This document shows, one piece after another, positions 36,453 through 56,521 of a stretch of 64,000 nucleotides of DNA (positions within the stretch are counted from its first letter, which is position 1; the number at the start of each line of letters is the position of its first letter). A program made the translations under genes and the position numbers. The notes beneath the pieces are model-generated. The model did no database searches and was not told where the DNA came from. It saw only the letters and a program-made list of their open reading frames with translations. Source of the stretch: Methylobacterium organophilum (GTDB lineage Bacteria > Pseudomonadota > Alphaproteobacteria > Rhizobiales > Beijerinckiaceae). The stretch spans positions 124,001-188,000 of the forward strand of contig NZ_BPQV01000005.1 of assembly GCF_022179465.1 (NCBI RefSeq), given 5' to 3'.

Positions 36453-36470
36453 ATGGCGCGCCCTACGGGA
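36453..36470. repeat. Left attachment-site repeat (attL-type copy of tRNA-Glu 3' end)
   Basis: ATGGCGCGCCCTACGGGA is identical to 56445-56462. The flanking bases differ on both sides, so the identity is exactly 18 bp. It contains the complement of the encoded CCA, the acceptor strand and part of the T stem. Confidence 0.88.
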
Positions 36471-40483: not shown

Positions 40484-40539
40484 GGCGGTGGTCTCCAAGC
40501 TGGATCAGGGTGTGATCGGGATGGTGGGTGAAGCCGGGC

Positions 40540-41331
40540 TCACATCAGGGTCGGCTTGACGGGCGCGAACGTCTCGGTGGCCGGGAGGACGGTTCCCGCG
40601 GCTCGCGCGTAGCGGCCAAGGAGGTGGAAGGCGTCTGAGCAGGTTGGGAACAGGAACCACGCATCTCCGGCCCGGGTGGCGAAGAGGCCGCCACCGAAGG
40701 GCACGAAGGCGATGTCATGGGCTGCCGCCGCAGCAGCGACCGAGAGCACCGCCACGTCGCTGAGATCCGTCACGGTGTTCTTGGCGTTGCTGAGCTGGGC
40801 CCCGGTGAGGGTGATAGGCAGCCGTGAGGGGAACTCGATGCGATCGTGATCCCGCCAGGCGGCGAACTCGATGGCAGCGGCGAGACCCGACCAGGGGCGG
40901 GGCGCTTCGGTCCACTCCAGGCTCGCCAGCGGGTCTTCCGCGATGCGGCGCCAGAGGTCCGCCCGCTCCTCCGCCCAGTGGGCTCGTTGGCTTTCGTTGT
41001 GGTGATCGAAGCCGAAGCACGAGGCGAGGTGGACTCCGAGCCAGCCCGCGGTGCCGTCATCCGAGCGGACGGGCTTGGGCTCTGCGAAGAGCAGGAGGCC
41101 CCGCGCCAGGTCGTTGCCTTGAGCTGCCAACGCGGGGGCCGCGAGCTGCACGCCAAGCGGCGAGACGTGGCGGTTCCAGTGTCGGACCTCAGGCAGCCCC
41201 GGCACGGCGATACCCGCCCGGTTGGCCGCTCCCGCCACCGCGTAGACCTGGCGGTTCAGCACGAGGCGGGGTGGCGAGGCGGGATCGGGCCATGCGGCAT
41301 CGTTCGGCAAAGCGGTGTGCTCGCGCGTCAT
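40540..41331 (-). CDS. Unknown protein of the integrated element (263 aa)
   Basis: The 263-residue soluble protein begins M-T-R-E-H-T-A-L and has segments rich in Trp and His (H-W-N-R-H-V, F-G-F-D-H-H-N-E, H-W-A-E-E-R-A-D-L-W). No known domain is recognised. It is the first gene of the leftward unknown cassette and lies 250 bp from the divergent rightward genes, with a less GC-rich control region between them. A role in element regulation or host interaction is possible only by context. Confidence 0.7.
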   Translation of the reverse strand: MTREHTALPNDAAWPDPASPPRLVLNRQVYAVAGAANRAGIAVPGLPEVRHWNRHVSPLGVQLAAPALAAQGNDLARGLLLFAEPKPVRSDDGTAGWLGVHLASCFGFDHHNESQRAHWAEERADLWRRIAEDPLASLEWTEAPRPWSGLAAAIEFAAWRDHDRIEFPSRLPITLTGAQLSNAKNTVTDLSDVAVLSVAAAAAAHDIAFVPFGGGLFATRAGDAWFLFPTCSDAFHLLGRYARAAGTVLPATETFAPVKPTLM

Positions 41332-41511: not shown

Positions 41512-41539
41512 TTGATTTTAGCGCAATGAAGTGCATATT
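41512..41539 (+). promoter_or_regulatory. Possible promoter of the rightward replication-type genes
   Basis: TTGATT, 16 bp, then CATATT lies in a locally AT-rich patch of the divergent region. The fit to a vegetative consensus is moderate. The start point would precede the ATG at 41582 by about 35 bases. Confidence 0.3.
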
Positions 41540-41581
41540 AGAGGTGTGAAAGGGGATTGGTGCCCCTTCGCCAGGAGACGA

Positions 41582-42316
41582 ATGAGCCCTCACGCCTCAA
41601 CACTCGACACAGGACCGGCAAGCTTCCGCCGCACCCGGGCACCGGCCGCCGTCTTCACCAGACTCGTGAAGTGGTTGAGCCAAGCATCCAAGTTCGCCGC
41701 GACCGGCCTGGAGACGGACCGACCGGATGACAGTCTCCTGATGGAGGCTTTGGCCGAATGGTGGATCGGCTTTGCGGGTGAACCTGAGCTAATCCAGGAG
41801 GATGGCCGAGCCGTCATCCGAGTGACGTTCAACAAGCCCCGCGGCGAGGGGCAGACCATCCGGTACTTCGATCCTGCCTTGGTCGCCTTCGTAATGCTGC
41901 TTTGCTCCCCGGGCGGGCGCTTGATGCTGGAGGACCACGGCCCGGCTGGCGGGTACTACTACGTCCGCCTCTATATCACCGGCTATCGCCCTGACGGCCA
42001 GCTCCGCCGGGTCTACCTTCTGCGCCTCGCGGCCGACACGCCGCCGGGTCGGAAGACCAGGGAGCCGGAGAACTTCCGCAGTGCCCTTCGCCGGGACCTC
42101 GGGACCTATGAGGAGGAGCCGGCCAACGAGCTAACCACGGTCCTCTACAGCACCGCTGATGCCAAGCGGGACAGCGTGGACAGGTGGCGGGAGCTGGACC
42201 AAGAGCACCCGCACATGCGGCCGTGTCCGATTGAGGCGGAGCACTTCTCCTCCCTCTTGGACGTGGCTCACTTCCTCCTGAGCCGGGTTCCACTCGGCAC
42301 GGATAGCGCCGCGTGA
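41582..42316 (+). CDS. Unknown protein of the integrated element (244 aa)
   Basis: The start is set by AGGAGACGA immediately before the ATG. An upstream in-frame ATG at 41531 lacks a ribosome site. The 244-residue product is soluble and mixed alpha/beta, with a central segment G-G-Y-Y-Y-V-R-L-Y-I-T-G-Y and no recognised domain. It ends in a GTGA overlap with the next gene, so it belongs to a coupled operon leading to the polymerase-like gene. Likely a replication or early-region protein by position. Confidence 0.7.
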   Translation: MSPHASTLDTGPASFRRTRAPAAVFTRLVKWLSQASKFAATGLETDRPDDSLLMEALAEWWIGFAGEPELIQEDGRAVIRVTFNKPRGEGQTIRYFDPALVAFVMLLCSPGGRLMLEDHGPAGGYYYVRLYITGYRPDGQLRRVYLLRLAADTPPGRKTREPENFRSALRRDLGTYEEEPANELTTVLYSTADAKRDSVDRWRELDQEHPHMRPCPIEAEHFSSLLDVAHFLLSRVPLGTDSAA

Positions 42317-43074
42317 GCAATCGCGCTCGTGCTCTCGGAGCTTCGACCCGCGGCCTGCGCCCGGCGACGGTAGAGCTTCGGGAGCGCACCGCCATGCGGG
42401 CTGATGGAGCCTTCAGAGGCTGCCCGGTCCCCGGTTGTGGCCGACCTCCGCAGGCCCGCGATGGCCGGGGGGTCTCACTCGTCTACTGCCGGCATCACTG
42501 CCAAGCAGCCAACCGCCACGGGTGCCACTGGAAGAAGACGTACTCGGCGGCCGACCTAAAGCCCTATCGGGCGGCAGCTCGCCGGTTCATCCGGGCCAAC
42601 CCGCATGACATCTGGATCGTCCACGCCTTGTTCGCGCTAGAGGAAACGTTGCGACATGCCGGCCCGGTGCACCGGGTGGTCGATACGTACCGGATGGCGC
42701 CCGCCGACAAGGCCAGGGCGGCGCTCGCTCGGATGCGCCGTTGGGAGGTACCGCCGGAGAAGCTTCTCGTGAACTACCTCGCAGTGTGCTGCGCCATAGA
42801 GGAGGACCCGATCCGGGCCGGAAGCGAGACCGAAAACTACCGCCGCGTTCAGGCCGCGAAGGCGTGCGCCCGGATGGCCGCAAGCAACAGGGAGGATTAC
42901 CTGCCGGCCCGTCATAAGCGATACGCTCGAAGCACCGGCCTCGCCCTGGTGCATCTTGGGCGGATGCTGGAGGCGGCGTGCGAACACGTTCACGGCTATC
43001 ACCTCCCCGCCATCCTCGCCCTGGCCCACGAGGCAGCGACTTCACGGAGGGACCGCGATGCTGCTACGCGGTGA
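42313..43074 (+). CDS. Zinc-finger-like protein upstream of the polymerase-like gene
   Basis: The GTG start overlaps the previous stop (GTGA). The 253-residue protein has a Cys/His-rich N-terminal module, C-P-V-P-G-C-G-R-P then Y-C-R-H-H-C and H-G-C-H-W, a plausible treble-clef zinc site near residues 37-76. A helical C-terminal part carries many Ala/Arg. The gene overlaps the polymerase-like gene by 17 bp. Phage proteins with this kind of module often bind DNA. A replication accessory role is a guess from context. Confidence 0.65.
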   Translation: MSNRARALGASTRGLRPATVELRERTAMRADGAFRGCPVPGCGRPPQARDGRGVSLVYCRHHCQAANRHGCHWKKTYSAADLKPYRAAARRFIRANPHDIWIVHALFALEETLRHAGPVHRVVDTYRMAPADKARAALARMRRWEVPPEKLLVNYLAVCCAIEEDPIRAGSETENYRRVQAAKACARMAASNREDYLPARHKRYARSTGLALVHLGRMLEAACEHVHGYHLPAILALAHEAATSRRDRDAATR

Positions 43075-44443
43075 ATGGATGGAGACCCCTAGCGGCGGGA
43101 TGACGGAGGTGGCCTTACAACCCCCTGATATGGAGGCGTTTGTCCGGGACGCGCAGGATGGTGCTCGCATGGAGCACATGTTCGATCCTTGGCTGACGTG
43201 CAGCAACAGGCTGGCGCAGACAGTCGCCGCAAACCTGCATTCCAGTTGGGACTTGGTGGCACCTCCGCGGCAGCGCGTGATGCGGGCAGTTGACCGAAAG
43301 AACCTGCAAGCGGTCATCCAGGCCCTAGCCGCCAACTTCACGTACTCCGCCGCCATCGGTGTGTGGCCACCGAGCTTCGGTGTCAGCCTCCGGGCGGAGA
43401 AGCAGCCGACCACCCGGTACGACCGGCCGGGCTTCAAAGGGCTGCCGCGCATCCTCCGGCTGCTCGCCTCGCCAGAGGTCAGCATGATCCGGCTGGAGAA
43501 GTCCCAAACGAAGGGCACCGCAAGCAGGGTGACGGCTTCACCCACCTTCCTGTCAGAGTACCGGACACTGAAGGCATTCGGCCTTGGGCCTGAGAAGTTC
43601 GGCCAAGTGCTCGAACGCGAGACCATCTATCTTAGCCGGAAGACGAGGGACTACGCTGCCGACCTGGAGGAGCGGGAACTCATTAACTACGGCCCTAGCC
43701 CGGAGGCGGATCAATTTCGGTCAGAGCTGTTGCGGATCAACAGTGCCCTGGCGGCGGCCGACATCGGCTTAGAGCCCGACGATGGTCCACCCGTCATCAC
43801 CAGCATCCGCCTCTTGCGCCGCTACTTCAACCTGCCCGCGGATGCCCCCGAAGGCACCGAGCGGTTTGACCTCGGCGGCCGGCTATTCGGCGGCTGGTGG
43901 CAATCGCTCCCGTCCGCGCGGCGCCGAGCCATCCGCATTGAGGGGGAGCACATCGCGGACCTGGACTTCGCGGCCATGTTCCTTCGCTTGGCTTACGTCG
44001 AGGTGGGAGAGGAGCCGCCATCAGGAGACCTATACGCGGCAGTCCCCGGGCTGGCCGGAGAGCGGTGGCGGCTTGGTCTGAAGAAGTTCACCCTGGCCAT
44101 GCTCTGCCGCAACACTCCGATCACCCGATTTCCGAAGGGTACCCGGGAAGAGTTTCCGGCCCGCCTTCCTGCTTCGGAAGTGCGGGAAGCCATCCTCGCG
44201 GGCCACCCCGCCCTAGTCCCGATCTTCGAGACCGGAGCCGGTCTTCGCCTGATGTTTCGGGAGTCACAGGTCTTGGTGGCGGCGCTTTTGGCCCTCGCTG
44301 AGGAACGAGTGCCGGCCCTGCCGATGCACGATGGGTTGATGGTCGCCCGTTCGAAGGCAGACCGGGTGGCGGCAATCATGGGAGACGCGGCTCAGGATGT
44401 GACGGGCCACCGCCTCCCTATCGTACTGAAGTCACTGTACTAA
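43058..44443 (+). CDS. Minimal DNA polymerase A-like palm protein
   Basis: The 461-residue protein starts at an ATG after GGAGG. Its C-terminal half resembles a family-A polymerase palm. Motif A is D-L-D-F-A-A-M-F-L-R-L with Asp303. A finger-like helix K-K-F-T-L-A-M-L-C-R-N follows, and motif C is P-M-H-D-G with Asp425. The steric-gate Glu of motif A is Phe and the Glu of H-D-E is Gly. Motifs A and C are only 122 residues apart, about 50 fewer than in Pol I. There is no visible 3'-5' exonuclease domain. It could copy DNA for the element or be a primase-polymerase-like enzyme. Similar unknown proteins occur in Rhizobiales elements. Confidence 0.6.
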   Translation: MLLRGEWMETPSGGMTEVALQPPDMEAFVRDAQDGARMEHMFDPWLTCSNRLAQTVAANLHSSWDLVAPPRQRVMRAVDRKNLQAVIQALAANFTYSAAIGVWPPSFGVSLRAEKQPTTRYDRPGFKGLPRILRLLASPEVSMIRLEKSQTKGTASRVTASPTFLSEYRTLKAFGLGPEKFGQVLERETIYLSRKTRDYAADLEERELINYGPSPEADQFRSELLRINSALAAADIGLEPDDGPPVITSIRLLRRYFNLPADAPEGTERFDLGGRLFGGWWQSLPSARRRAIRIEGEHIADLDFAAMFLRLAYVEVGEEPPSGDLYAAVPGLAGERWRLGLKKFTLAMLCRNTPITRFPKGTREEFPARLPASEVREAILAGHPALVPIFETGAGLRLMFRESQVLVAALLALAEERVPALPMHDGLMVARSKADRVAAIMGDAAQDVTGHRLPIVLKSLY

Positions 44444-44449
44444 TTACTC

Positions 44450-44473
44450 GCCACCTAAAGGTCCTCTGGTGGC
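44450..44473 (+). terminator. Possible terminator after the polymerase-like gene
   Basis: GCCACC and GGTGGC pair as a 6-bp stem around a 12-base loop, 7 bp after the stop. It is modest in strength. Confidence 0.35.
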
Positions 44474-44781
44474 CCTTGGTGTCATCGTTTCAACCATCCC
44501 ATCCCGCCGCCCATTGAGGTGGCGAGGCCGGGTTCGAGGGTGAGGGAGCAAGCCTCCGATCCCCTGCCGAGTGAGACCGTCGCGGTGGTCTGTCCCATCG
44601 CTCTCAGGCTCTCACCATCCCCTCGGCGCATGAGGCCGAGACCTGTCGTGATGCTCCGAGCGCCTACCCCGCGCCAGCATCACGGCCCCTAGCGAAATGG
44701 GATCGGAGGCAGAGTGGCCCCCGTCCTCACCGCAGTACCCCGCAATCACACCACCGCCGAGCAACCGCTTCGGAGGGCTCG
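44474..44781. other. Gap between early-type and virion-type genes
   Basis: About 310 bp without a credible gene separate the polymerase-like gene from the ejection-type genes. In related podoviruses the capsid, portal and tail genes would be expected here, so this could be a deletion scar. A late promoter is likely but no consensus was recognised. Confidence 0.4.
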
Positions 44782-47544
44782 ATGAGTCCTGCCCGCGATC
44801 CCTCTCGGCCCTCTTCAGGATCACCTATGCCCAGAGATCAGTACCGTCCCGTAGACCGATACGAGCCCCTTCGCCCCGTAGCCGCCCCCGTCGATAGCTT
44901 CGTGCGGGCTCAAGAACCGTCCCGAGACACCAACCTCCAAGACCTTGCCCGCTCCCTCTCCAACCTCGGGGGCTCCCTCGGTGGTCTCGTGGGCCAGCGC
45001 GATAAGCAGGCCGAAGAGGCGGATGCGATCCGGGGGGAGGCTGCCTTCCACCGCAGCACCGAGAAGGGCTTTGCGGAGGCCGTAGCGTCCGGCCAGGTGC
45101 CCGCTCAGTACAGCCAGTCCTTCATGCGCGGCTGGAAGAAGGCCCAGGGAGACGTGGCCGGGGGGCAGCTCCTCCAGCAGTTCGATGCCGCCTACAGCCA
45201 GTGGCCGGGCAAGACCTCAAGCGATCCGCAGGCCTACGACACGTTCGTCTCGGACTTCCTGAGGCAGAACATCAAGACCGACGATCCCGACATCCTGGCC
45301 GGTCTCAATCCCCGGGTCCGCCAGCTCTCGGAGAACTACCTGCACCGGCACATCGGGGATGCCTCGAAGGCGGCCACGCAGGGCCTGCTCGATGCCGCCG
45401 CGGCGCAGGACTCCCAGGCGCTCGAAGCCGCCAACACGGCCGGTCTCGCGAGCCGCCGGGGCACGGACTACGAGGCGGCCTTCCGGCAGATCGAAGCCAA
45501 CCGCGAAGCCAAGCTCAAGATCGGCGCCAACGCCCAGGACTACGACCAGAAGGTGGTGGTGGACGGGGTGACCGCGGCGGCCATCCAGCACCGTGACCCG
45601 AAGATCCTCGACTTCCTGGACCGCAAGGTGCCCGGGCGGGACTACGCTTGGTCGAACACACCGTACGGCCGGGAGCAGCGGCAGAAGACCATCGATACGC
45701 TGGAGACGATGGGACGCCGGTCCATTGCCGACGACGAGAAGCGCCGCCGGGAGGAGAAGGCGGAACTGAAGGATACGGTCACCCGCGACACCATCCAGGC
45801 CATCACCAAAGACCCCCGAGCCCCGGTGCCGGAGGATCTGCTGGCCCGTGGCGAGAAGGTGGACCCGGACTTCCGCATCAACGTCATCCGCTGGCGGGAT
45901 GCCATCGCGAAGGGTGGCCAGACCTCAGACCCGGAGGAGCTGCTGGCGGTCACCTCCGACATCCTCAACGGCGGTGGTCTTCGGCGCGTGCAGCGAGCCA
46001 TGGACGAGCGGGTCTTCAAGAACCAGGAGGACCTGACGCGAGCCTGGAAGCTGGCTGAGAGCATGAAGGAGCACGGCGGCAAGCTCGATGCCGTCACCAA
46101 GCTCCAGTCGTTCCGGGATCTCACGGCTACCATCAAGAAGCGCACCGCCACCGAGAAGGACCTCTCGGCGACCTTCGATGATGGGTCCTTCTCAGCGGAG
46201 GGGCTTCAGGCCATGTCGGACCTGCGGCTCCAGGTCCTCCAGTGGTCCGCGGAGAACCCGAACGCAGGCGCCATCGAGCAAGAGGAGGCGGTGGCGAAGT
46301 TCGGCGCTGCGCTCCTGAAGCGTCTCCCGCAGCCCGACGCCATCGGCAAACCGAGCTACGACCGGCAGGGGGTCGAAGGGCCGAACACCTACGAGGCCAA
46401 GCCGCCGGAGGAGAGCACGGGCAATCCCGCCGTCACCGCCGTGCCGAACCCGATGCAACCCGCCGCTCCGGCTTACGGGAACCGTGACGTTCAGGTCCCG
46501 AGCGGCCTCCCGGGCGTGTTGGAGGAGCAGAGCCGTTCCCCGCAAGCCCCGCAGGCCAGCACCACCACTGCCACTCCCAGCCCTGCACCTCAGGCCGCCC
46601 AGCCCGAGGCCGTCTCCGCGTGGTTCAACGGGCTCACACCGGAGCAGCGCAGCCGCCTGGAGCTGAAGGCCGCGGAGGAGCGCAAGCCCCTGATGCTCAA
46701 GGCGCAGGAGGTCTACGACCGGGGCGTGGCTGCCGGGGCCATCAAGCCGCCGCCCGCCGCTCCCGCTCCGAGCCCAGGCCCCGGCAAGCAGTCCAGCCTC
46801 CGGGCCCCTGACGGGACGCCCATCGAGACAGCCTCCGCCGCGAGCGCCACCAACACCACGGACGGGGACGACTACGAGGGTGACCGCCAGGCCATCGCGG
46901 CAGCCTTCGCGCATGCCCTCGGTGACACGAAGCGGCGCCCTGTCGGCGGGTACGTCTCGGCTCAGCTCCGGGACGATCCGCAGGCCGCCCGCATCCTGGA
47001 CTTCGTGGCGGGGCCGGAGAGCGGGGGCAACTATAACGCCTTCTTCGGCAATGGGCGGTCCACCAAGGACCTCTCGGCGATGACGCTCGACCAGGTGATG
47101 GCGTGGTCAAGAAATCGGGGCACTCAGTCTTCCGCCACCGGCCGATATCAGTTCATGGCGGGCACGCTGAGGGGCCTGAAGGAGGAACTGGGCCTGTCCG
47201 GCTCGGAGCCCTTCACACCCGCTTTGCAGGACCGGCTCGCCCTCCAGCTCCTGGAGCGGCGCGGCTACTCCGAGTGGCGGGCCGGTAGGATCTCAGACGC
47301 CGCGTTCGCCAATCGTCTCGCCCTCGAATGGGCCAGCCTGCCGAACGTCACGGCGCAGAACGGGCGGCCCGCCGGGGTCTCCGCCTATGCGGGTGACGGG
47401 CTGAACAAGAGCTTGGTGAGCCCCGCGTCGGTCCTGTCGGCTCTCCGTGGTGGTGGTGACGGCCCCGGCTTCCTCGGCCGGCTCTTCGGCAGGGGCCGCC
47501 GCATGGCCCCGCCGCAGCGTCCCGACAACGAGACCAACGTCTAG
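44782..47544 (+). CDS. Podovirus-type internal virion protein with C-terminal lysozyme domain
   Basis: The ATG follows CGGAGGG. The 920-residue protein has a long, charged, helical body (about residues 40-560), a Pro/Ala/Ser-rich linker (about 560-720) and a C-terminal lambda-type lysozyme/transglycosylase (about 738-885). The last contains G-P-E-S-G-G-N-Y-N with probable catalytic Glu746, then S-S-A-T-G-R-Y-Q-F and A-L-E-W-A-S-L-P. Size and position before a giant protein fit the ejection proteins of T7-like phages (gp15/gp16), which puncture the cell wall during DNA entry. In T7 the lytic domain is on gp16, so the arrangement differs. Confidence 0.75.
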   Translation: MSPARDPSRPSSGSPMPRDQYRPVDRYEPLRPVAAPVDSFVRAQEPSRDTNLQDLARSLSNLGGSLGGLVGQRDKQAEEADAIRGEAAFHRSTEKGFAEAVASGQVPAQYSQSFMRGWKKAQGDVAGGQLLQQFDAAYSQWPGKTSSDPQAYDTFVSDFLRQNIKTDDPDILAGLNPRVRQLSENYLHRHIGDASKAATQGLLDAAAAQDSQALEAANTAGLASRRGTDYEAAFRQIEANREAKLKIGANAQDYDQKVVVDGVTAAAIQHRDPKILDFLDRKVPGRDYAWSNTPYGREQRQKTIDTLETMGRRSIADDEKRRREEKAELKDTVTRDTIQAITKDPRAPVPEDLLARGEKVDPDFRINVIRWRDAIAKGGQTSDPEELLAVTSDILNGGGLRRVQRAMDERVFKNQEDLTRAWKLAESMKEHGGKLDAVTKLQSFRDLTATIKKRTATEKDLSATFDDGSFSAEGLQAMSDLRLQVLQWSAENPNAGAIEQEEAVAKFGAALLKRLPQPDAIGKPSYDRQGVEGPNTYEAKPPEESTGNPAVTAVPNPMQPAAPAYGNRDVQVPSGLPGVLEEQSRSPQAPQASTTTATPSPAPQAAQPEAVSAWFNGLTPEQRSRLELKAAEERKPLMLKAQEVYDRGVAAGAIKPPPAAPAPSPGPGKQSSLRAPDGTPIETASAASATNTTDGDDYEGDRQAIAAAFAHALGDTKRRPVGGYVSAQLRDDPQAARILDFVAGPESGGNYNAFFGNGRSTKDLSAMTLDQVMAWSRNRGTQSSATGRYQFMAGTLRGLKEELGLSGSEPFTPALQDRLALQLLERRGYSEWRAGRISDAAFANRLALEWASLPNVTAQNGRPAGVSAYAGDGLNKSLVSPASVLSALRGGGDGPGFLGRLFGRGRRMAPPQRPDNETNV

Positions 47545-47566
47545 CAGTCCCTTCGGAGATCAGACC

Positions 47567-47842
47567 ATGAGCAACGACCAGACGGGCGTGGCTGCGGGCA
47601 TCGTGCGCCTCTTCGAGGAAGCGCAACGGGAAGCCGCCACCAAGGCCAACATCGAGCGGATCATCACGGAGGCTTTCGCCAGCGTCGATAGGCTTGAGCC
47701 GGGCGCCACGCCGGAGGAACGGGCCCAACAGTGGGACGCCATCTTCGAGCACATGTGGCGCGGCTTCGGCTGCAACGTCCTCCCGTTCCCCGAGCGCACC
47801 GGGAGCAACAGCACCACCAGCCTCGCGGGAGACGCGGCGTGA
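47567..47842 (+). CDS. Small protein between the two ejection-type genes
   Basis: The 91-residue acidic protein starts after GGAGAT at 47567. It has a helical N-terminus (G-I-V-R-L-F-E-E-A-Q-R-E-A) and ends just before a GTGA overlap with the giant gene, so its translation should be coupled to it. It could be a chaperone or small internal virion protein. No homologous family is recognised from sequence. Confidence 0.7.
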   Translation: MSNDQTGVAAGIVRLFEEAQREAATKANIERIITEAFASVDRLEPGATPEERAQQWDAIFEHMWRGFGCNVLPFPERTGSNSTTSLAGDAA

Positions 47843-50800
47843 GCGCGACTAGCGCCACTCAGACCGCATCCACGGGCATGTCGCCCGAGGCCTTCGATGC
47901 GCTGCTAGCCGAGCCGGCGGCTCCTGTAGCTCGCCCGGTGCCAGCTCAAAGCATGGACCCGGCGGCGTTCGATGCGCTGCTGGGCGGAGCCCCCGAGGCT
48001 CCCGTCATGACGCCTCCGGCCACACCTCCGGCCCAACCTCCGGCCCAACCCGCAGCACCGACCCCTCCGGCCACACCCACCGTCAACGGCCACGCGCTGG
48101 ACGCCTCGGGCCAGGTCGGCGGGGCGATCCTCACGGGTGCCGCCAAGTCCCTCTACGAGACGAAGGACTTCATCTTCGGGAAGACCCCGGAGAGCGAGAA
48201 GTCCGACACCCGGCGCAGCATCGAGTCCTTCGACAGGGAGCTGGGCGAGGCGTCCATCGGCAACAGCTTCGTGTCGGGCCTCTCGCAGTTCGCCACGGGG
48301 ATGCTCGGCGCGGGGAAGCTGGTGGGCCTCGCCAAGGCGGTGCCCGGAGTCGGCGGCGCGGTCGGGGCATTGGAGGCCACCAAGGCGGGTTCCTTCGCCC
48401 TCAGCTCCGCCAAGGCCGCCACGGTGGGAGCCGTTGCCTTCGATCCCGATGGCCCCCGCCTGTCGGACCTCGTGGTGCTGAAGGGGCCCGCATGGCTCCA
48501 GAACCCGGTCTCCTCCTACCTCGCCCACTCCGGCAACGAGGACGATACGGCGGCCCTCGGGCGCATGAAGAACGCCCTGGAGTCGATCGGCATGGACGCC
48601 GCCCTGGCGGGGGTCTTCACGCTCAGCGTCAAGGGCTATGCGAGGGTCCAAGCCTATCGGGCCGGCACGGGGACCGCGGAGGAGGTGAAGACCGCCACCG
48701 ATGAGCTGGCCCATGCGGTGGCCCACAGGGACGCCAAGCTGGCCGCCAGCAAGGGGGATCTGGAGACGGTCGAGGCGCTGCGCCTGGAGCACCCTCAGGC
48801 CGTGAACGCCGCCGAGCAGGCCCTGGAGGCCCACGAGGCCACCGTTGCGCCGGCACCGGTAGCGATCCCTGAGGTTGGGCTGCCCCCCGAGCAGGCGGTG
48901 ATCGCTCCACCGACTCCCCCGGGCTTGGGTCCGGTGCCGGAGACGAACTACCGGAGGCGCCTCTCGGAGCACGCCCCCGTGGTCTACCACGAGACGAACG
49001 CCGAGGGCCTCGCGGACTGGCTGCCGAACGATCAGAGCCAGCAGTCCGGCCTCGCGGGCAAAAGGGAACGGTACTACTCCAACAACCCCGACCTGGCGCT
49101 GGGGCAGGACCACAACACCGGCTTCCGGTTGGAGCTGGATACCTCGGGTCTGGAAGGCCGCATCAACCAATCCAAGCCGACGTGGCGGCACTCCTGGGAA
49201 GCAGGGGATGCCGAGTTCATGGCCCGCGTCGAGAAGGAGACGGACGACGCCTCCCTGCTCAGGGCGGTGACGGTCTCCCCCGACCAGTTCGAGGGCAAGG
49301 GGACGCCGTGGCAGCGCCGCGCTCGCGCCAAGCTGGAAGAGCTGAGCGCTGACCAGGGCTGGACCCGGACGGCCAACCCGGACGGCTCGGTGACCTACAG
49401 ACGGCCGGCGGCAGATCCCGGCCCGGTCCAACCCAAGGACGTGGGCCAGCAGGCAGCCCAAGCCACCCAGTCGGGCGACCCGGCGCAGGCCCAGGTGCAG
49501 CGGGTGGACAGCCCGACCCAGGGCGCCGGCCCGGAGGGTCTCCCCGCCAAGCCGCGGCTTCTCGCCATCACGGACGATCAGGTCCAGCGCCTCATCGCCC
49601 ACGGGCAGGCCGACACGGAACAGCTCCTCTCGCCCGGTGGCTGGGAGGGAGCCCTTGAGCGCGGCTACAAGTTCGGGGACGGAGGGGGCATCCCCTGGCA
49701 GAAGCTGAGCATCGAGCCCGGCACGGCGCCCGGCACCTCCCAGCTCGACCAGGTTCTCCGGCGGGTCTCCGATGAGTTCGCGGGGCAGATCGCGGCGGCC
49801 AAGAGCGGGGACGGGCTCGGAGGCGTCCGCTCGGATGCGCTCCAAGACCGCCTCATCCAGCAGCGGGTGGCGATCTATGGCGACGACCCCGAGGCCCTGA
49901 TGGGCAGCCTCCAGCTCGCCGGCCGCAATGCCGACCGTCTGGTGGCGGACGTGGCGGCAGCGGACCTCATCACCCTGCGGGCCTCCCAAGACGCCCAGAA
50001 CCTCGCGGATCGCATCCGGCTGGGCATGCTGGAGGAGTTCGGCGGGGACCTCTCGGCGGCCATGTCGGCGCTGCGAGGTCACTACCAGGTGGCGGCCACG
50101 GCGCGGGCCGAGAGTTCCGCCATGGTGGCCAACGCCGCGCGGACCCTCCGGCGGCAGCGTGCGGAGTTCGCCTATACCCCCGAGGACGTGGCCGCGATGG
50201 CGAAGCTCTCGGATGCCCAGATGCTCAACCTCATCGAGGCGGCGGGGCGCGATCCGAGGGTGGCAGACCGGCTTCTGAGGCGGGGCTTCTGGCAGCGGCT
50301 CGGGGACGACGCGAGCTACCTCTACGTCAACAACCTCCTCTGGGGATTGCGGACGCACTTCGTGAACCTCTCGACCAACCTCTACATGCTCGGAGCCCGG
50401 CCTCTGGAGCGGATGATTGGCGGGGCGATCCAGGGCGACCGGGTGCGGGTGGCCGCCAACGCCCGGCAGTACGCCTTCATGGCCGGCTCGCTGCATGAGG
50501 CTTGGCGGGATGCCGTGCGGACCTGGCAGACCGGAGACAGCATCCTCTCGCCGCATTCTTCCGAGCTGAGCGCCGCCACCACGGGCCGTTCGGTCAACTG
50601 GGTGGCGGAGGGCTTCAAGCAGGCCGACTCGATCCCGAACGTCCTGTCCAACGCCTATACCGGGTTCATGAAGGCGGCCGGTCTCCCGACCCGGGCCCTC
50701 GGTGCGGTCGATGAGCTGGTCAAGCAGACCGTCTACCGCTCCAAGGTCATGGCGGATGCCCACGGGACCGGCATCGCGGCGGGGCTCGAAGGTCCGGCCC

Positions 50801-52212
50801 TAAGCGAGCACGTCCGGCGGGCCCTCGACGCAGCCTTTGACGATGCCGGCCGGGCGGTGGACCTGAAGGCGCTCGATGAGGCGCACATCGCGACCTTCCA
50901 GCAAGACCTTCTTCCCGGCACGTTCGGCGCCAGGGTGCAGGGCTTCGTGGGCGACTCGGCGGCGCTGCGGATCATCGTCCCCTTCATCCGCACCCCGACC
51001 AACGTCCTGCGGATGGGCTGGAAGCTGACCCCGGGCCTCAACCTGGCGCAGAAGGAATACCGCCTGATGCTCCGGGGCGAGATGGGTCCCGAGGCGCAGG
51101 CTCAAGCGATCGGCCAGATGTCGATGGGCTCGCTCTTCCTCGGAGTGGCGGGTCTCCTCACCCATGCTGGCTTCATCACCGGAGGCGGGCCGAGCGATCT
51201 GAAGCTCAAGCAGGAACTCATGGCCACCGGCTGGCAGCCCTACTCCTTCGTGGTGCCGGACGCTGACGGGAAGCCGACCTACGTCAACTTCGGCCGCTTC
51301 GATCCTGTCGCCATGCCATTCGGCATCATGGCGGACGTGGTTGACATCCTGGAGCGGGATCATGACGGGGACGGCCCGGGAGAGAAGGCTGCCGCGGCGC
51401 TGGGCGGCGTGTTCTTGAGCGTCGTTAAGCAGCTAGGGCAGAAGACCTACCTCACCGCCCTCAACGATACGATCACCGCCATCGTGGACCCAGACCGCGG
51501 GCTCCAGAAGGCGGCCGGCAAGACGGCGGCCAACTTCGTGCCGTTCGCCTCTGGCCTGCGCTTCGCCAACCCCGACCCGCTGATGCGCGAGACCCGGGGC
51601 ATCGTGGATAGCATCATGGCCACCGTGCCGGGCCTGTCCGAGCGGCTGCCGGCGAAGCGGGATCTCTTCGGAGACCCACTGACCGTCCACAAGGGCCTCT
51701 GGGTCACCGGCAAGGATGGCCTGGTGGATGCCGAGGTGCGCCGGATGATCGATGAGGCGGGGGTGGGCCCCTTCGGGCCGCCGAGCTACCGGCAACGCGG
51801 AGTGGACCTCCGGGACGTGACCACCGCGGACGGTCGGAATGCCTACGAGGCCTTCCAGGAGTTGGCCGGGCACCCACCGCGAGGGCCGAGCCTGAAGGAG
51901 ACGATGGGCCGGCTCATGGCGACCAAGGCCTATCAGAATGCCCCGGATGGCGAGCCCGGAGACCACACGACCAAGGGGACCAAGCAGGCGATGCTCACGG
52001 GCACCGCGGCGAGGTACCGGGAGCTGGGCCTGAAGCTGCTGATGCGGGACCCGAACGTGCGTCAGGCGATGTTCCAGGCGAGCGCCAGGGGCCGTGCGGC
52101 GGTGGCCGCGAGGAATGCCCCGAAGTCGGACCGTCAGGTGGGCGCTGCGGCTCTGGAGAGGGTGGGCCGCGGGTTCGGAGTGGACCTGCGCGGTGTGCTG
52201 ACGGCGGAGTGA
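47839..52212 (+). CDS. Giant internal virion/DNA-ejection-type protein
   Basis: The GTG start overlaps the previous stop and gives a 1457-residue protein. The N-terminus repeats a short motif (S-P-E-A-F-D-A-L-L and D-P-A-A-F-D-A-L-L) and is followed by a Pro/Ala-rich linker. Residues about 381-500 (V-V-Y-H-E-T-N, then Y-Y-S-N-N-P-D-L-A-L-G) look like an embedded ADP-ribosyltransferase-type polyvalent domain. The C-terminal 700 residues contain helical and hydrophobic stretches (N-N-L-L-W-G-L-R-T-H-F-V-N-L-S) typical of podovirus gp16-like proteins that form a conduit across the envelope. No frameshift is seen, so the gene appears intact. Confidence 0.72.
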   Translation: MSATSATQTASTGMSPEAFDALLAEPAAPVARPVPAQSMDPAAFDALLGGAPEAPVMTPPATPPAQPPAQPAAPTPPATPTVNGHALDASGQVGGAILTGAAKSLYETKDFIFGKTPESEKSDTRRSIESFDRELGEASIGNSFVSGLSQFATGMLGAGKLVGLAKAVPGVGGAVGALEATKAGSFALSSAKAATVGAVAFDPDGPRLSDLVVLKGPAWLQNPVSSYLAHSGNEDDTAALGRMKNALESIGMDAALAGVFTLSVKGYARVQAYRAGTGTAEEVKTATDELAHAVAHRDAKLAASKGDLETVEALRLEHPQAVNAAEQALEAHEATVAPAPVAIPEVGLPPEQAVIAPPTPPGLGPVPETNYRRRLSEHAPVVYHETNAEGLADWLPNDQSQQSGLAGKRERYYSNNPDLALGQDHNTGFRLELDTSGLEGRINQSKPTWRHSWEAGDAEFMARVEKETDDASLLRAVTVSPDQFEGKGTPWQRRARAKLEELSADQGWTRTANPDGSVTYRRPAADPGPVQPKDVGQQAAQATQSGDPAQAQVQRVDSPTQGAGPEGLPAKPRLLAITDDQVQRLIAHGQADTEQLLSPGGWEGALERGYKFGDGGGIPWQKLSIEPGTAPGTSQLDQVLRRVSDEFAGQIAAAKSGDGLGGVRSDALQDRLIQQRVAIYGDDPEALMGSLQLAGRNADRLVADVAAADLITLRASQDAQNLADRIRLGMLEEFGGDLSAAMSALRGHYQVAATARAESSAMVANAARTLRRQRAEFAYTPEDVAAMAKLSDAQMLNLIEAAGRDPRVADRLLRRGFWQRLGDDASYLYVNNLLWGLRTHFVNLSTNLYMLGARPLERMIGGAIQGDRVRVAANARQYAFMAGSLHEAWRDAVRTWQTGDSILSPHSSELSAATTGRSVNWVAEGFKQADSIPNVLSNAYTGFMKAAGLPTRALGAVDELVKQTVYRSKVMADAHGTGIAAGLEGPALSEHVRRALDAAFDDAGRAVDLKALDEAHIATFQQDLLPGTFGARVQGFVGDSAALRIIVPFIRTPTNVLRMGWKLTPGLNLAQKEYRLMLRGEMGPEAQAQAIGQMSMGSLFLGVAGLLTHAGFITGGGPSDLKLKQELMATGWQPYSFVVPDADGKPTYVNFGRFDPVAMPFGIMADVVDILERDHDGDGPGEKAAAALGGVFLSVVKQLGQKTYLTALNDTITAIVDPDRGLQKAAGKTAANFVPFASGLRFANPDPLMRETRGIVDSIMATVPGLSERLPAKRDLFGDPLTVHKGLWVTGKDGLVDAEVRRMIDEAGVGPFGPPSYRQRGVDLRDVTTADGRNAYEAFQELAGHPPRGPSLKETMGRLMATKAYQNAPDGEPGDHTTKGTKQAMLTGTAARYRELGLKLLMRDPNVRQAMFQASARGRAAVAARNAPKSDRQVGAAALERVGRGFGVDLRGVLTAE

Positions 52213-52508: not shown

Positions 52509-53348
52509 ATGAAAACTGTATCATTGGTTAACATGAAGGGAGGCGTTGCTAAGACTACGCTTGCGACCAACCTTGCTCATTGCCTTGCTCTCCGGCACAG
52601 ATCCCGGGTCTTGCTGATCGACATAGATCCGCAATTCAATGCAACTCAATGTATTCTCGCGGGTGGCGACTATGTTCGTAGGAGAGGCGCCGGCGGGAAG
52701 ACCATACTTGATGTTTTCGATGATACTGCCCATACGAAGATAAATCCCGTGCGAGGATCTGCTCTTCAGCCGGTCATGAGGCTTGAAGATATTGAGCCAT
52801 GGCAGACATCTAAAGGGTTTGACCTAGTTCCTGGAGATCTTGAACTCTATCGCCTTGATATGGGCGCAGGGCAAGGTCGGGAGCAGCGCCTCAAACGGTT
52901 CCTGGAGAGGATCAACGCACCCGCCAAATATGACTTCGTCCTAATCGACACGCCGCCAACCCCCTCGGCGTGGATGATGAGCGCACTTCTCGCGTCTGAT
53001 GCTTATTTGGTGCCGGTTAAGCCAGAGCCCTTGTCGCGGGTAGGAATCGACCTCCTTAGAGGGGTTGTGAACCGGTGCTCAGAAAACCACGGCCACGATA
53101 TTGCCTGTCTCGGGGTCGTGCTGACGAGCGTCGATGAGCGCACCCGCGTCTTCAGCGAAGCTAAAGAATTTCTGGATAGGAACGACGCTTGGCGGGGTAA
53201 ACGGTTTGCTGCGCACCTGCCTCACAGAACGGCAATCGCTCGCAATCAGGGCCGCCAGGGCATGATTTTGGGCTCAGACATCGAAGATGCTAAACTCGCG
53301 TTAACGCGTATCACGGCGGAATTCCTTGAGCGGATCGGAAATGTCTGA
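52509..53348 (+). CDS. ParA/MinD-type ATPase
   Basis: The 279-residue protein has the deviant Walker A K-G-G-V-A-K-T-T near residue 11, D-I-D-P-Q-F-N-A-T and L-I-D-T-P-P-T-P. These define a ParA/Soj ATPase. It lacks the N-terminal helix-turn-helix of plasmid type Ia ParA. The gene and its two followers are clearly AT-richer than the rest of the element, suggesting separate acquisition. A ParB-type partner is not obvious. It may partition an excised form of the element or be part of another ATP-driven system. Confidence 0.85.
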   Translation: MKTVSLVNMKGGVAKTTLATNLAHCLALRHRSRVLLIDIDPQFNATQCILAGGDYVRRRGAGGKTILDVFDDTAHTKINPVRGSALQPVMRLEDIEPWQTSKGFDLVPGDLELYRLDMGAGQGREQRLKRFLERINAPAKYDFVLIDTPPTPSAWMMSALLASDAYLVPVKPEPLSRVGIDLLRGVVNRCSENHGHDIACLGVVLTSVDERTRVFSEAKEFLDRNDAWRGKRFAAHLPHRTAIARNQGRQGMILGSDIEDAKLALTRITAEFLERIGNV

Positions 53349-53862
53349 AGGTGCCAACACTACAAAGCGGCGCTCAGCTCGAAATTCCGATCCCCGTGCG
53401 GTCGAGCAGTTTCTAGAAGAGCTATCTTGGCTCCTGCACGCTCATGCCGACCTTGATTTTCGATCAATCAAAAACGCGCGGGCAGAAAAGCAAACGAAAA
53501 CACCGGAGCTGTTTGAACGTCTTGCGCCTAAGAATCCAAACATAGTTTATTTGGTGGGAACGCTGCCAAGCCTTTTCATTGATGAAAGCCTTTTCCCTTC
53601 TAATGAAGATATTGCCGAATTTGCATCGACGGCCCTCAAGATTAATTTGCCGCGGTGGCATAAAAAGGCCCGCTTTGAATTGGTAGGCCACATTGTTTGT
53701 CGTGCGGTTGAACTAGATAACAAGCAGGTCGAGCGGCTCGTGCGAGCACTTGTCAAAATCGTTGACGGCGGGGAGAGCGGCAAGGCTTCTCTCAAAGCGC
53801 GAAAGCAGCAGGGTATGAGTTGGAATGAGGTAATACAAGATCTGCTTGCGCAGGAAACATGA
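53341..53862 (+). CDS. Unknown middle protein of the ParA module
   Basis: The ATG overlaps the ParA stop by 8 bp (ATGTCTGA). The 173-residue product is basic at the N-terminus, carries a central R-W-H-K-K-A-R-F-E-L-V-G-H segment and ends K-A-R-K-Q-Q-G-M-S-W-N-E-V-I-Q-D-L-L. It has no ParB nuclease-like motif or membrane helix. Position suggests a ParA partner, perhaps DNA-binding. Function unknown. AT-rich like its neighbours. Confidence 0.65.
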   Translation: MSEGANTTKRRSARNSDPRAVEQFLEELSWLLHAHADLDFRSIKNARAEKQTKTPELFERLAPKNPNIVYLVGTLPSLFIDESLFPSNEDIAEFASTALKINLPRWHKKARFELVGHIVCRAVELDNKQVERLVRALVKIVDGGESGKASLKARKQQGMSWNEVIQDLLAQET

Positions 53863-54554
53863 GCGCACAGTCTGACGGCGTTGCCGATATCCATGCTTTT
53901 ATCGAAGGTATTTCCTTCGAAGATGTATTGGCTGACGGAGCTTGCAAGCAAACGTTTGCGCAGGCTTATAAATATGTTCATGCGCTCCTCATTTGGCATG
54001 AAGCAGTTGCCAATCCCAAGAAGCCAGTGGCTGACGCGCAGGCAGTATTGCAATTTCGAGAGCTTCTCTCTGATCTGGCCGCATGCCAAGTTCTATTGCT
54101 CCTGGGTATGTACAAGCCGGCACGGATGATGCTGCGAAGTTCAATCGAGAACATACTTCGGACTGTAGCGCATGAGCAGGGCTTCTTGACGTCGGGGGCC
54201 AAGTTTACTTACGAGCTAATTACGCTAGTCCGATCTTCTAAAATCGGCGCCGACGGATCGCCGGTAAAAAACGACTTGAACCAGCTCATTCAAATGTACT
54301 CGGACCTTTGCTCGTACGCACATGCAGCGGACGAGGCTAAGTTGGCCTTGCGCGTGCCACTTGAAAGCGTGTCGCGTTTCGACAAAAGCCAGTATGAAAG
54401 TTTGGTCGATGGCCTAAAATATGTTTCTCAGCGCACAAACAAGATAATGTTTGTTATGTATGCAAGTAAGCTGAGATTGGTGCATCATTCTCAGCGAGAT
54501 TACATACTTGATGCTCTTCCAAAAGCGTTGAAGGCAGCGATCTTAGTGCCCTAG
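53859..54554 (+). CDS. Unknown helical protein of the ParA module, possibly HEPN-like
   Basis: The ATG overlaps the previous stop by 4 bp (ATGA). The 231-residue product is nearly all helical. A segment R-S-S-I-E-N-I-L-R-T-V-A-H is followed by Y-S-D-L-C-S-Y-A-H-A, a pattern seen in some HEPN-like and abortive-infection proteins, though the strict R-x4-6-H motif is not certain (R-x3-H here). No signal peptide is present. The last gene of the tightly coupled AT-rich trio, it converges on the integrase with a 31-bp gap. Function unknown. Confidence 0.65.
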   Translation: MSAQSDGVADIHAFIEGISFEDVLADGACKQTFAQAYKYVHALLIWHEAVANPKKPVADAQAVLQFRELLSDLAACQVLLLLGMYKPARMMLRSSIENILRTVAHEQGFLTSGAKFTYELITLVRSSKIGADGSPVKNDLNQLIQMYSDLCSYAHAADEAKLALRVPLESVSRFDKSQYESLVDGLKYVSQRTNKIMFVMYASKLRLVHHSQRDYILDALPKALKAAILVP

Positions 54555-54585: not shown

Positions 54586-56352
54586 CTAATCCCACCGCAA
54601 GCCCCGCACCACGTCCGGCGCCTCGATCCGCGCCAGCTCCTCCGCCAGGACCTTCAAGCCAAACCTGCCGTACTGCCGCCCGACCCCTCCCCCGGTGTGC
54701 CCTGTGAGCGCATCGTGCACGTCCTCAGCCAGCTTTGCGGCCCGCGCCAGCTCCTTGAAGGTGTGCCTGAACGAGTGAAACACCTTGGTCCGGTCCTCGA
54801 TGCCCGCCTTGTCGCGCAGGTATCGGTTGAACCACTTCGACCAAGGCCCGTTCTGCCGGCCCTCGTTGTCGGCCTCGACGTGCGGCCACAGCGGGCTGTC
54901 GGGCTTTGAGCCGGCATCGAGCAGCGACTGCCGGTAACGAAGCAGGCCGATCCGCTCCAGTTCGGGGTGCAGGGGGACCTTCCGCCGAGAGGAGGCCGTC
55001 TTGATGCTCCGTCCCCCGGCCGTCCCGATGTCGAGATGCCAGACGCCCGTCTCAGCGTCCTGCGCCAGGTCCATCACCCGGAGTTGCGCCAGTTCGCCTT
55101 GCCGGGCACCGGAGAGGAGCGCCATCAGCGGGAGCCAGAAGGCCGCTTCTCCTCCCCCTCCGCGAGGCCGCTCGCCGCTCCCATAGACCCCCGTGCCGAA
55201 GATGGCCTTGAGGTCGGCCGCGCTGAAGGGTTGCCGCTTCTCCTCCGCCCTCGCATCCACCACCAACTTGATGCCCTTCACGAAAGGGTTCTTGAAGCCC
55301 GGCACAGTGTCGAGCCTGCCGGCCGCCTCAGCGTGGCTCACGATGGCAGCCAAGATGGCCAGCGTCTTGTTGATCGTGGCGGCGTGCTGGGTCGGGTAGC
55401 CCTTGAGGTTCCGCTTCAGGAGGTCCCGCATCGGCAGCCGGCGGAGTTCGGCGGGGAGGCGTGTCGGCACCCGGGCAAGGGCGTCCCTGAAGTCCCTCGC
55501 CTTCTCCCGCGTGAGATCGCCCAGGCGGATGTCTCCGTGCCACTCTTTGAGGAGGCGAACAGAGCGTTCGGCTTCGAGCAAGGTCCGCCCGCTGGGCTTC
55601 CGGCTGCCCCGTGCGCCGCTGCCTGCCTTCCAAGCCTCGTAGGCCTCCGTGAGCGTTGGGCCGCACTGTGAGCTGGGTGGCGGGGTCGAGACCACCTCAC
55701 CCTCCTGCCGGGCAAGCATCAGCCCGTAGGCCTTCACGTGGGCCCGCAGGACCGCCAAGGACGCCTCATGGTAGGCCTCGGAGGTCGGGTCTATCGGTGC
55801 TTGTTTTCGCCGCAGGAGGTCGCGGGTCTCAGCGTCCACGATGCCGGGATCGGATCGGGAGAGAGCCTTGCGGTAGTCCGCCGCCAGTTCCTCCAGCTCA
55901 CCGCCGTAGACGTGGTGGTGGTCCTCAGCCATCCCGCGGCGGCCGAAGGCGACCGGCATCAGGTCGGGCCACTGCGAACGCTCGGCGGCGGTCTGGAGCT
56001 GTCTGCGGGCATCGCCGTCCGATCGCTCGGCGTCATCCGCGGCCAGCAGCTCTGCCAGCACGTCCGCCTCGATCTCCTCAGGCAGGGGCATCGTGGCAGC
56101 ACGTCGGGTCGAGGCTGTAGGGATCTCCCCTCGCTTCGTCCGCTCGGCCTGCTCGAAGTCCGCCATGCAGTCGCGCAGCATCCTGGAGCCGGCCTTCTTG
56201 GCGGCAGCCGGTTCCTTGGTCCTGAGGCTGAGCTTCCAGTTCGCCTTGCCGGTCCACGGCGCCGGCATGAAGGGGCGCAGCTCCGCCGGGATCACCCTGC
56301 GGAAGTAGTACGTGCCCAGCCCATCACGGATGAGATACGACATCAGCGCCAT
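54586..56352 (-). CDS. int: Tyrosine recombinase (integrase) of the element
   Basis: The 588-residue integrase has the catalytic set Arg417 (S-G-A-R-Q-G-E-L), Lys in S-R-R-K-V-P-L-H, His526-x-x-Arg529 (H-S-F-R-H-T-F), His552 (L-T-G-H-T) and nucleophile Tyr561. The N-terminal half has the Arg/Trp-rich start (L-G-T-Y-Y-F-R-R-V-I-P-A-E-L-R) found in long alphaproteobacterial island integrases. It lies 93 bp from the tRNA-Glu end repeat and reads away from the tRNA. It should excise and integrate the element at the 18-bp repeat. Confidence 0.94.
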   Translation of the reverse strand: MALMSYLIRDGLGTYYFRRVIPAELRPFMPAPWTGKANWKLSLRTKEPAAAKKAGSRMLRDCMADFEQAERTKRGEIPTASTRRAATMPLPEEIEADVLAELLAADDAERSDGDARRQLQTAAERSQWPDLMPVAFGRRGMAEDHHHVYGGELEELAADYRKALSRSDPGIVDAETRDLLRRKQAPIDPTSEAYHEASLAVLRAHVKAYGLMLARQEGEVVSTPPPSSQCGPTLTEAYEAWKAGSGARGSRKPSGRTLLEAERSVRLLKEWHGDIRLGDLTREKARDFRDALARVPTRLPAELRRLPMRDLLKRNLKGYPTQHAATINKTLAILAAIVSHAEAAGRLDTVPGFKNPFVKGIKLVVDARAEEKRQPFSAADLKAIFGTGVYGSGERPRGGGGEAAFWLPLMALLSGARQGELAQLRVMDLAQDAETGVWHLDIGTAGGRSIKTASSRRKVPLHPELERIGLLRYRQSLLDAGSKPDSPLWPHVEADNEGRQNGPWSKWFNRYLRDKAGIEDRTKVFHSFRHTFKELARAAKLAEDVHDALTGHTGGGVGRQYGRFGLKVLAEELARIEAPDVVRGLRWD

Positions 56353-56444: not shown

Positions 56445-56462
56445 ATGGCGCGCCCTACGGGA
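56445..56462. repeat. Right attachment-site repeat (inside tRNA-Glu 3' end)
   Basis: An 18-bp copy identical to 36453-36470. It overlaps the last 17 bases of the intact tRNA-Glu gene, so integration restores a full tRNA. Confidence 0.9.
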
Positions 56463-56521
56463 ATCGAACCCGTGTTTTCGCCGTGAAAGGGCGACGTCCT
56501 GGACCGCTAGACGAAGGGCGC
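56446..56521 (-). tRNA. tRNA-Glu (anticodon TTC)
   Basis: The 76-base cloverleaf is complete: acceptor GCGCCCT/AGGGCGC, D arm with A-G-C-G-G-T, anticodon stem TCGCC/GGCGA around loop CTTTCAC (anticodon TTC), T arm ACGGG-TTCGATT-CCCGT, discriminator G and an encoded CCA. It serves as the integration target of the 20-kb element. Confidence 0.97.

Follow-up and report, generated by a model that had tools for sequence, protein, structure and literature searches.

A TV-Pol-like integrative element of Methylobacterium encodes T7-like ejection proteins and is a candidate satellite of podophages

The systems that come closest to the locus analysed here are the ejection core of T7-like phages, phage satellites, and the mobile elements named after their TV-Pol polymerase. 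The core of a T7-like virion contains gp15 and gp16 (internal virion proteins C and D), and in T7 the lysozyme domain is located in gp16. Phage satellites are, in the available part of PMC13376191, 7-20 kb long and free of structural genes, and the available part of PMC10690885 records satellites that do encode encapsidation genes. TV-Pol elements were described in 2008 by Iyer, Abhiman and Aravind, the legend of whose alignment names Methylobacterium nodulans and M. populi (PMC2579912); sections 5 and 6 of that paper propose them as replicative transposons and are silent on ejection proteins, arrays of phage promoters and fragments of phage polymerases.

We find that the window, the 64,000-nucleotide stretch of the Methylobacterium organophilum chromosome analysed here, holds a discrete integrated island of 20.0 kb (36453-56462) at a tRNA-Glu gene (56446-56521, reverse strand). 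It is bounded by identical 18-bp attachment repeats, the right one (56445-56462) at the 3' end of the tRNA gene and the left one (36453-36470) a copy of that end, and it encodes its own tyrosine integrase (54586-56352, reverse strand; PF20172, E 9e-12, with a weak PF00589 match), which shares 69-71% amino-acid identity with the integrases of islands G004, G011, G072 and G116. Like PLE, PICI, P4-like elements and PICMI as the texts available portray them, the island combines an integrase, attachment repeats and a replication gene with no capsid or terminase gene found, and its size falls in the satellite range; unlike the satellites of PMC13376191, it encodes two ejection proteins. The capsid, portal, terminase and tail genes of a complete prophage were not found in it. 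The ends of the element, like the T7-like RNA polymerase fragment described below, do not figure in an earlier note on this DNA, which had singled out its ejection genes.

The replication gene of the island is a forward-strand polymerase gene (43052-44443; start uncertain, frame open from 42956) that matches PHROG 4756, a family of unknown function (E 5.7e-15), and is assigned by motif. Residues R277, D305, D326, R340/K344 and H426-D427 are invariant in our alignment A4, and when read by eye against the available part of PMC2579912 they supply the TV-Pol signature of a beta-hairpin arginine, two catalytic aspartates, a fingers aspartate and RxxxK; profile alignment by hhalign to one DNA polymerase and one RNA polymerase, and a PDB profile search, returned no match. 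The preceding gene, o253 (42313-43074, forward), has relatives adjoining TV-Pol in G118, G116, G115, G004b, L130 and L132, and a serine recombinase of the resolvase family (37100-37777, forward; PF00239, E 1e-27) is 82-91% identical in amino acids to the copies of G049, G072, G116 and G004b. The elements in PMC2579912, as far as its text was available, combine the polymerase with a stand-alone helical protein encoded next to it, to which o253 might correspond, and with a gamma-delta-type resolvase and a lambda-type integrase, which the island resembles in its serine recombinase and tyrosine integrase. TV-Pol-like matches occur in 56 of 112 Methylobacterium genomes, and three TV-Pol islands carry the RNA polymerase fragment and no ejection genes, so that the ejection genes are optional cargo. 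A search of phages found no TV-Pol. Conversely, G011, G049 and G072 carry ejection genes with no TV-Pol match.

The left part of the island further encodes a 60-residue protein (36790-36972, forward), whose DNA is shared in part with G011 (78% match over 36898-36957), an SLFN/AlbA_2-domain protein (37845-39020, forward; PF04326, E 5.6e-10), the functionally unassigned c389 (39329-40498, reverse), and o261 (41531-42316, forward), which has no PHROG match. Matches to c389 are present in islands G011, G049, G089, G072 and G118 and, mostly weakly, in 27 of the 112 genomes, its own included. To the right of the ejection genes lie a ParA-like ATPase (52509-53348; PHROG 164, E 5.4e-51) and two phage-type proteins, o174 (53341-53862; PHROG 12497, E 1.4e-11) and o231 (53859-54554; PHROG 12265, E 1.1e-7), all on the forward strand.

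Three adjoining open genes on the forward strand encode proteins of 920 (44782-47544), 91 (47567-47842) and 1457 residues (47839-52212), the last two overlapping by four bases, which bears out the earlier description of them as intact and coupled. Their supposed resemblance to internal virion proteins holds for the two large products and is not recognised for the small one. By homology and by its position after gp15, the 1457-residue product is a gp16-like internal virion protein: it matches PHROG 6651, 'internal virion protein' (E 2.9e-36), and 66 phage records, each at below 60% identity, and 30 of the 40 phage matches listed from these 66 bear the same annotation. The 920-residue protein is probably gp15-like and carries its lysozyme domain at the C-terminus (residues 732-888; PHROG 90 endolysin, E 6.8e-26, and phage lysozymes). 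Confidence in its predicted fold is low overall (mean pLDDT 63, pTM 0.30); this weak model retrieves from BFVD, at E<=0.001, 23 viral models whose TM-scores are low (<=0.28 by query), among them the 'internal virion protein C' of Escherichia phage SRT7 (E 9.6e-4), and nothing significant from the PDB, where the top match is the cyanophage A4 pre-ejectosome (E 0.36). A position between gp14 and gp16, as befits gp15 as a helical core protein, is seen in a T7-like phage of M. ajmalii, whose order gp14-gp15-gp16-tail fibre is that of the T7-like core. The small product, o91, has relatives that follow gp15 in G049, G004 and G011; compared with these relatives only, it is not a recognised virion gene, and no relative was found in the M. 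ajmalii phage. The island proteins show homology to the T7-like core proteins, and the island differs from that core in bearing its lysozyme on the gp15-like protein and in lacking gp14, capsid and portal.

No other virion gene was found in the island. Profiles derived from the phage of M. ajmalii together with six IMG/VR loci, scanned over frames of >=50 aa at E<=1e-4, returned no portal, scaffold, capsid, tail protein (two profiles), gp14, terminase subunit (either one) or tail fibre, in agreement with the earlier note. Such profiles might overlook unrelated capsids: in G303, G394 and G216, three gp16-bearing members of a 385-genome sample from the class, loci that by eye look like full podoviruses in size and order gave gp16 alone, and a single-sequence search added one more gene in G303. 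Across 10 contig sets the nine other structural profiles gave zero matches. Hidden capsid genes were sought and, within this limited reach, none emerged; the 338-bp non-coding gap between polymerase and gp15 (44444-44781), named earlier as a place where capsid genes might lie, contains no capsid gene and no match to the phage-type promoter model. Searched genome-wide, the M. ajmalii portal finds no match in the host genome, and this portal search revealed no T7-like prophage there; the earlier note had called for a look for a helper prophage.

Genes for gp15 and/or gp16 occur in eight of the 112 genomes. One, M. ajmalii, the only genome of the set with a portal, harbours a complete temperate T7-like phage of 50.5 kb; the other seven have islands in which gp15 and/or gp16 are open and a search for capsid genes found none; contig ends cut two of these islands. 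Attachment repeats and an integrase flank five of the seven (the window island and four sister islands; sizes 13.1-20.4 kb), and two IMG/VR contigs hold similar elements. A pattern search of viral_contigs found no gp15 relatives, and plasmids gave one weak gp16 match only. Recent deletion of a whole prophage was considered and rejected as the sole account, because the design is common to the two IMG/VR contigs and to sister islands whose integrases are of two types.

The main rival to a satellite reading is that the islands are T7-like prophages mostly eroded, in which gp15 and gp16 linger by chance or inertia and which integrate with no relation to a helper; we regard this as unlikely, and a real competitor nonetheless. 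It would account for the islands with gp15 only and with gp16 only, for the short TerL and RNA polymerase tails, and for the additional, incomplete copies of the gp16 C-terminus that G089 and G118 carry, and much of the constraint on both genes may have acted in phages. No main gene copy is broken in any relative, however, so that the decay anticipated earlier as a counter-argument is not seen: all six gp16 and all six gp15 genes in the comparison, each set drawn from five islands and one phage, are open at 53-76% pairwise identity. Simple Nei-Gojobori estimates of dN/dS are 0.23-0.31 for the gp16 core in a clade made up of islands only, and 0.30-0.44 (gp16) and 0.30-0.53 (gp15) for whole genes, which include time spent in phages. 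Under neutral simulation none of 200 replicates stays open for each of four genes; by divergence, none of 200 does at 0.35 changes per site and 6-9 of 200 do at 0.05. The earlier expectation of retention under constraint is supported by these values. On the gp16 tree, the L135 copy is sister to phage L040 and four Methylobacterium island copies form a separate clade. The genes are found again and again in elements that do not fall into a single gp16 clade. At least three changes between island and phage labels are forced, which may represent one gain and two reversals rather than several captures, and in 89 of 500 shuffles the island labels cluster at least as strongly as observed. The gp16 of G118 is a phage/island mosaic that has exchanged sequence with a T7-like phage, and much gp15 and gp16 divergence could predate capture. 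A functionless relic is disfavoured by the constraint on the sequences and by what looks like repeated capture.

Pieces of a T7-like transcription system accompany these genes. On the reverse strand, c263 (40540-41331) encodes a reduced T7-like RNA polymerase palm protein whose residues 67-178 correspond to T7 RNAP 431-539 (E 5.8e-10; PHROG 414, E 1.6e-26). Four islands, that of the window included, have copies of 239-309 aa, and a profile made from them aligns with the RNAP of the M. ajmalii phage in two blocks (E 9e-42). Compared with a T7-like RNA polymerase, c263 is internally deleted and has lost both catalytic aspartates. By eye, the G115 fragment is interrupted by transposase-like genes, a state that would also suit erosion.

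In the M. ajmalii phage a promoter-like motif stands right after TerL and another right after RNAP; G049 and G011 retain a TerL tail with the following motif, and G011 and G072 an RNAP tail with the following motif. Because the promoter seeds come from the same islands, the motif was scanned leave-one-out: at >=18 bits, G011 has five sites, G072 four, G049 and G089 one each and the phage two, with none in 242 kb of flanks, and at 14 bits the model made without G072 gives one flank match as well. The arrays of G011 and G072 thus exceed the two sites of the phage, which erosion does not readily explain. The motif model finds nothing in G118, G004 or the window island, and the last of these lacks a TerL tail and an RNAP C-terminal tail as well; a resemblance to a phage-type promoter at 44442 was tried and set aside as too weak. 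A helper search of viral_contigs with the Methylobacterium motif gave no stretch, and one with the L135 motif gave five, of which one is the L135 contig itself; each of the other four has a single site and matches neither phage nor element proteins. Motifs and phage-end fragments in relatives support the satellite connection that was proposed earlier.

The same pieces could belong to resident anti-phage cargo in an unpackaged island, with gp15 and gp16 poisoning the cores of virions when T7-like phages infect, and with transcription of those phages blocked by the dead RNAP fragment. Ejection proteins do belong to phage particles, the dead palm fragment is retained in four islands, and the TerL tails are too short for enzymes; phage-end sequence with TerL tail and motif in two islands suits packaging or replication better, however, and seven island proteins compared with PADLOC (gp15, gp16 and polymerase not among them) gave only a weak ParA match, so that we consider such cargo quite improbable. 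Far more remote is the other suggestion made earlier, that the ejection proteins serve the host as an envelope-crossing device without any phage. An intact lysozyme domain beside an intact, very large internal virion protein would fit such a device, for which we find no specific support; in our data the genes occur exclusively in mobile islands or phages, four islands have gp15 or gp16 alone, and relatives carry phage-type promoter motifs.

We therefore favour, with modest confidence, the reading that we are dealing with a TV-Pol-type integrative element and a candidate satellite of T7-like podophages that brings its own ejection proteins. It would be mobilised by a helper: on infection by a T7-like phage, the island would excise and replicate with its own polymerase, the helper's RNA polymerase would read promoter arrays where these are present, and the catalytically dead polymerase fragment might temper or compete with that enzyme. 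Capsid, portal, terminase and tail would come from the helper, island gp15 and gp16 would take the place of the helper's core proteins in particles or dilute them there, and the swapped core could favour delivery of island DNA or weaken injection by helper particles. That there is a whole class of T7-like podophage satellites derived from TV-Pol elements, using helper capsid, tail and terminase with an ejection core of their own and relying on arrays of decoy promoters and a dead mini RNA polymerase to control the helper, is a more tentative proposal, to which we give slightly less than an even chance.

Our searches of an open-licence library listed no report of satellites swapping the ejection part. 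If our reading is correct, satellites can exchange the envelope-crossing part of a virion and let the helper provide shell and tail, and TV-Pol elements would be tied to T7-like phages, gaining a satellite life cycle. The role of gp15 and gp16 in T7-like infection would then become testable, and the reduced RNA polymerase would offer a natural fragment for testing the control of T7-type transcription.

We find three adjacent open genes in the window island, two of them ejection genes named after T7 core proteins: a gp15-like gene (44782-47544, 920 aa) adjoins a small gene, o91 (47567-47842), which overlaps the start of a gp16-like gene (47839-52212, 1457 aa). The 1457-aa protein matches PHROG 6651, 'internal virion protein', as well as 66 phage records, with internal virion protein annotated in 30 of the best 40 of these, and the 920-aa protein has a lysozyme domain at residues 732-888; neither matches Pfam (E up to 1) or NCBIfam (E up to 0.01). 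AlphaFold predicts a mainly helical structure for the 920-aa protein, with low overall confidence, and Foldseek with this model retrieves phage proteins from among viral models, one of them being internal virion protein C of phage SRT7, at low TM-scores, and no significant match from the PDB. The o91 gene lies right behind gp15 in four islands, and no copy was found in the phage of M. ajmalii (genome G021). Alignment reveals an in-frame block of ~170-180 aa ahead of the lysozyme in gp15 of G011, G049 and G021, which by eye looks like a peptidase-type domain and is largely missing from the copies in the window, G004 and G089.

Two 18-bp repeats bound the island, one at the tRNA-Glu 3' end (56445-56462) and the other at 36453-36470. 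They enclose a serine recombinase, an AlbA_2 protein, the island ORFs c389, c263, o261 and o253, a TV-Pol-like polymerase, the three ejection-region genes, ParA, two phage-type proteins and a tyrosine integrase. Profiles of nine other phage structural genes give no match in the window island, and the M. ajmalii portal, used as a query, matches 1 of 112 genus genomes, which is not that of the window; the island's link to T7-like phages consists of gp15, gp16 and c263 only. Judged by eye, the polymerase shows the TV-Pol motifs described in the available text of PMC2579912; profile-level comparisons give no support for this assignment. The same portion of that 2008 report describes TV-Pol elements with a resolvase, a lambda-type integrase and an adjoining separate protein, and proposes them as replicative transposons. 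The ParA-like ATPase (52509-53348) sits in a chromosomal island and may be a sign of an extrachromosomal phase.

The c263 gene (40540-41331, minus strand) is one of four stand-alone fragments of a T7-like RNA polymerase, the others being in G004:C10, G116:C15 and G115:C1, each with a TV-Pol-like gene in the same island. The window fragment aligns with T7 RNA polymerase residues 431-539, and a profile of all four matches the M. ajmalii polymerase strongly at 486-599 and weakly at 821-872 (i-E 0.009), with the region between missing from the match. Of the two catalytic aspartates of the polymerase, the fragments retain neither at the aligned sites.

Within Methylobacterium, gp16 and gp15 are each found in 6 of 112 genomes, eight in all with the window genome counted. 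One of these, M. ajmalii G021, harbors a temperate T7-like phage, complete and 50.5 kb long, that encodes an RNA polymerase, integrase, DNA polymerase, exonuclease and primase/helicase, together with portal, scaffold, capsid, tail proteins, gp14, tail fibre and terminase; two transposase-like genes amid its capsid and tail genes (G021:C106:48932-51225) look by eye like IS21 istA/istB. The remaining seven carry islands, in which a profile search found none of the G021 structural genes named above. Both ejection genes occur together in the window, G049 and G089, gp15 without gp16 in G004 and G011, and gp16 without gp15 in G072 and G118. Both att repeats are present in five of the seven, bounding 20.0 kb in the window, 18.9 kb in G011, 19.9 kb in G049, 13.1 kb in G072 and 20.4 kb in G089; the G004 and G118 islands are truncated at contig ends and thus only partly visible. 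Backbone genes and the RNA polymerase fragment recur in three further islands (G116, G115 and G004b) that lack gp15 and gp16, with no integrase seen within the G004b stretch. TV-Pol-like matches occur in 56 of 112 genomes, not including G011, G049 and G072, all three of which have another gene family (230-288 aa) ahead of the ejection genes, and there are therefore at least two backbones. A small HTH-like gene is common to the G021 phage and the G049 (three copies), G072, G089, G118, G011 and G004b islands.

Related loci extend beyond these genomes. Among IMG/VR contigs, L135 (2855517261_000001) encodes an integrase, gp16 (1175 aa) ahead of gp15 (589 aa), a TV-Pol (431 aa) and a serine recombinase, and L130 (2832187548_000007) encodes o253, TV-Pol, gp16 (1497 aa) and two integrase-like frames; their gp16 proteins are 38-41% identical to the Methylobacterium core, from which we judge that their hosts probably lie outside the genus. 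A single-sequence search of 21 kb of each, which covers 21 kb of the 59-kb L130 contig and all but 8.9 kb of L135, finds no other T7-like structural gene; fibre-like genes at the L130 edge resemble a different prophage by eye. In 385 genomes drawn from the class, gp16 matches four, the window's own and three that by gene order, judged by eye, appear to be full podoviruses. A tree of 16 gp16 proteins unites the window, G049, G118 and G072 island copies in one clade (100/100) and makes L135 sister to phage L040 (100/100); the L130 placement is not firm (83/91). Well supported branches force at least three island/phage label changes, the simplest reading of which is repeated capture of gp16 by islands, with one gain and two reversals a conceivable alternative.

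Phage-type motifs also occur in some of the islands. The M. ajmalii phage has a 23-bp promoter-like motif directly behind the terminase gene TerL and again directly behind the RNA polymerase gene; in T7 the right-end promoter and the primary origin lie at these sites. The last codons of TerL with the motif are retained in G049 and G011, those of the polymerase with the motif in G011 and G072, and G011 and G072 contain motif arrays. With the scanned element excluded from the model, matches of at least 18 bits number five in G011, four in G072, one each in G049 and G089 and two in the phage; G089 has three at 14 bits. Flanks and other regions scanned, 242,427 bp in total, contain no match, and neither do the window, G118, G004, G116, G115 and G004b islands. 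The motif is thus found in four of seven ejection-gene islands compared with none of three TV-Pol islands without ejection genes. Seven 25-bp units ahead of gp16 in L135 (2890-3267) are perhaps another phage-type promoter array, for which no helper was found. A stretch in the first third of G118 gp16 shares 82-90% DNA identity with the phage, and a later stretch shares 54-66% with the phage, 67-88% with the copies in the window, G049 and G072, and 58-69% with that in G089; this mosaic indicates that island and phage genes were once together in one cell. Extra gp16 C-terminal pieces in G089 (C29:341653-342129, a 158-aa frame) and G118 (C559:11821-11985, a short piece) are perhaps traces of gene replacement.

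Gene content, ends, relatives and homologous phage sequences are observed directly and are best explained by an element of the TV-Pol kind that is a satellite of T7-like phages. The main rival holds that the island is a relic, which does not easily explain the same genes remaining open in diverged islands. Pairwise dN/dS values range from 0.30 to 0.44 for gp16 and from 0.30 to 0.53 for gp15; in the island-only clade they are 0.23-0.31 for the gp16 core and 0.38-0.49 for the N-terminal part of gp16; under neutral simulation, each of four genes stays open in 0 of 200 runs at 0.35 changes per site and in 6-9 of 200 at 0.05. Some of this constraint would reflect selection within phages if every island acquired its copy from a phage outside the sample. 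Phage satellites are said to be without structural genes, in the available text of PMC13376191, and among the titles and abstract beginnings searched none describes a satellite of a T7-like phage that carries its own ejection proteins. As such a satellite, the window island would be induced by phage infection and replicated by its TV-Pol-like enzyme; it would use the shell and terminase of the helper, and its own gp15 and gp16 would act within the resulting particles.
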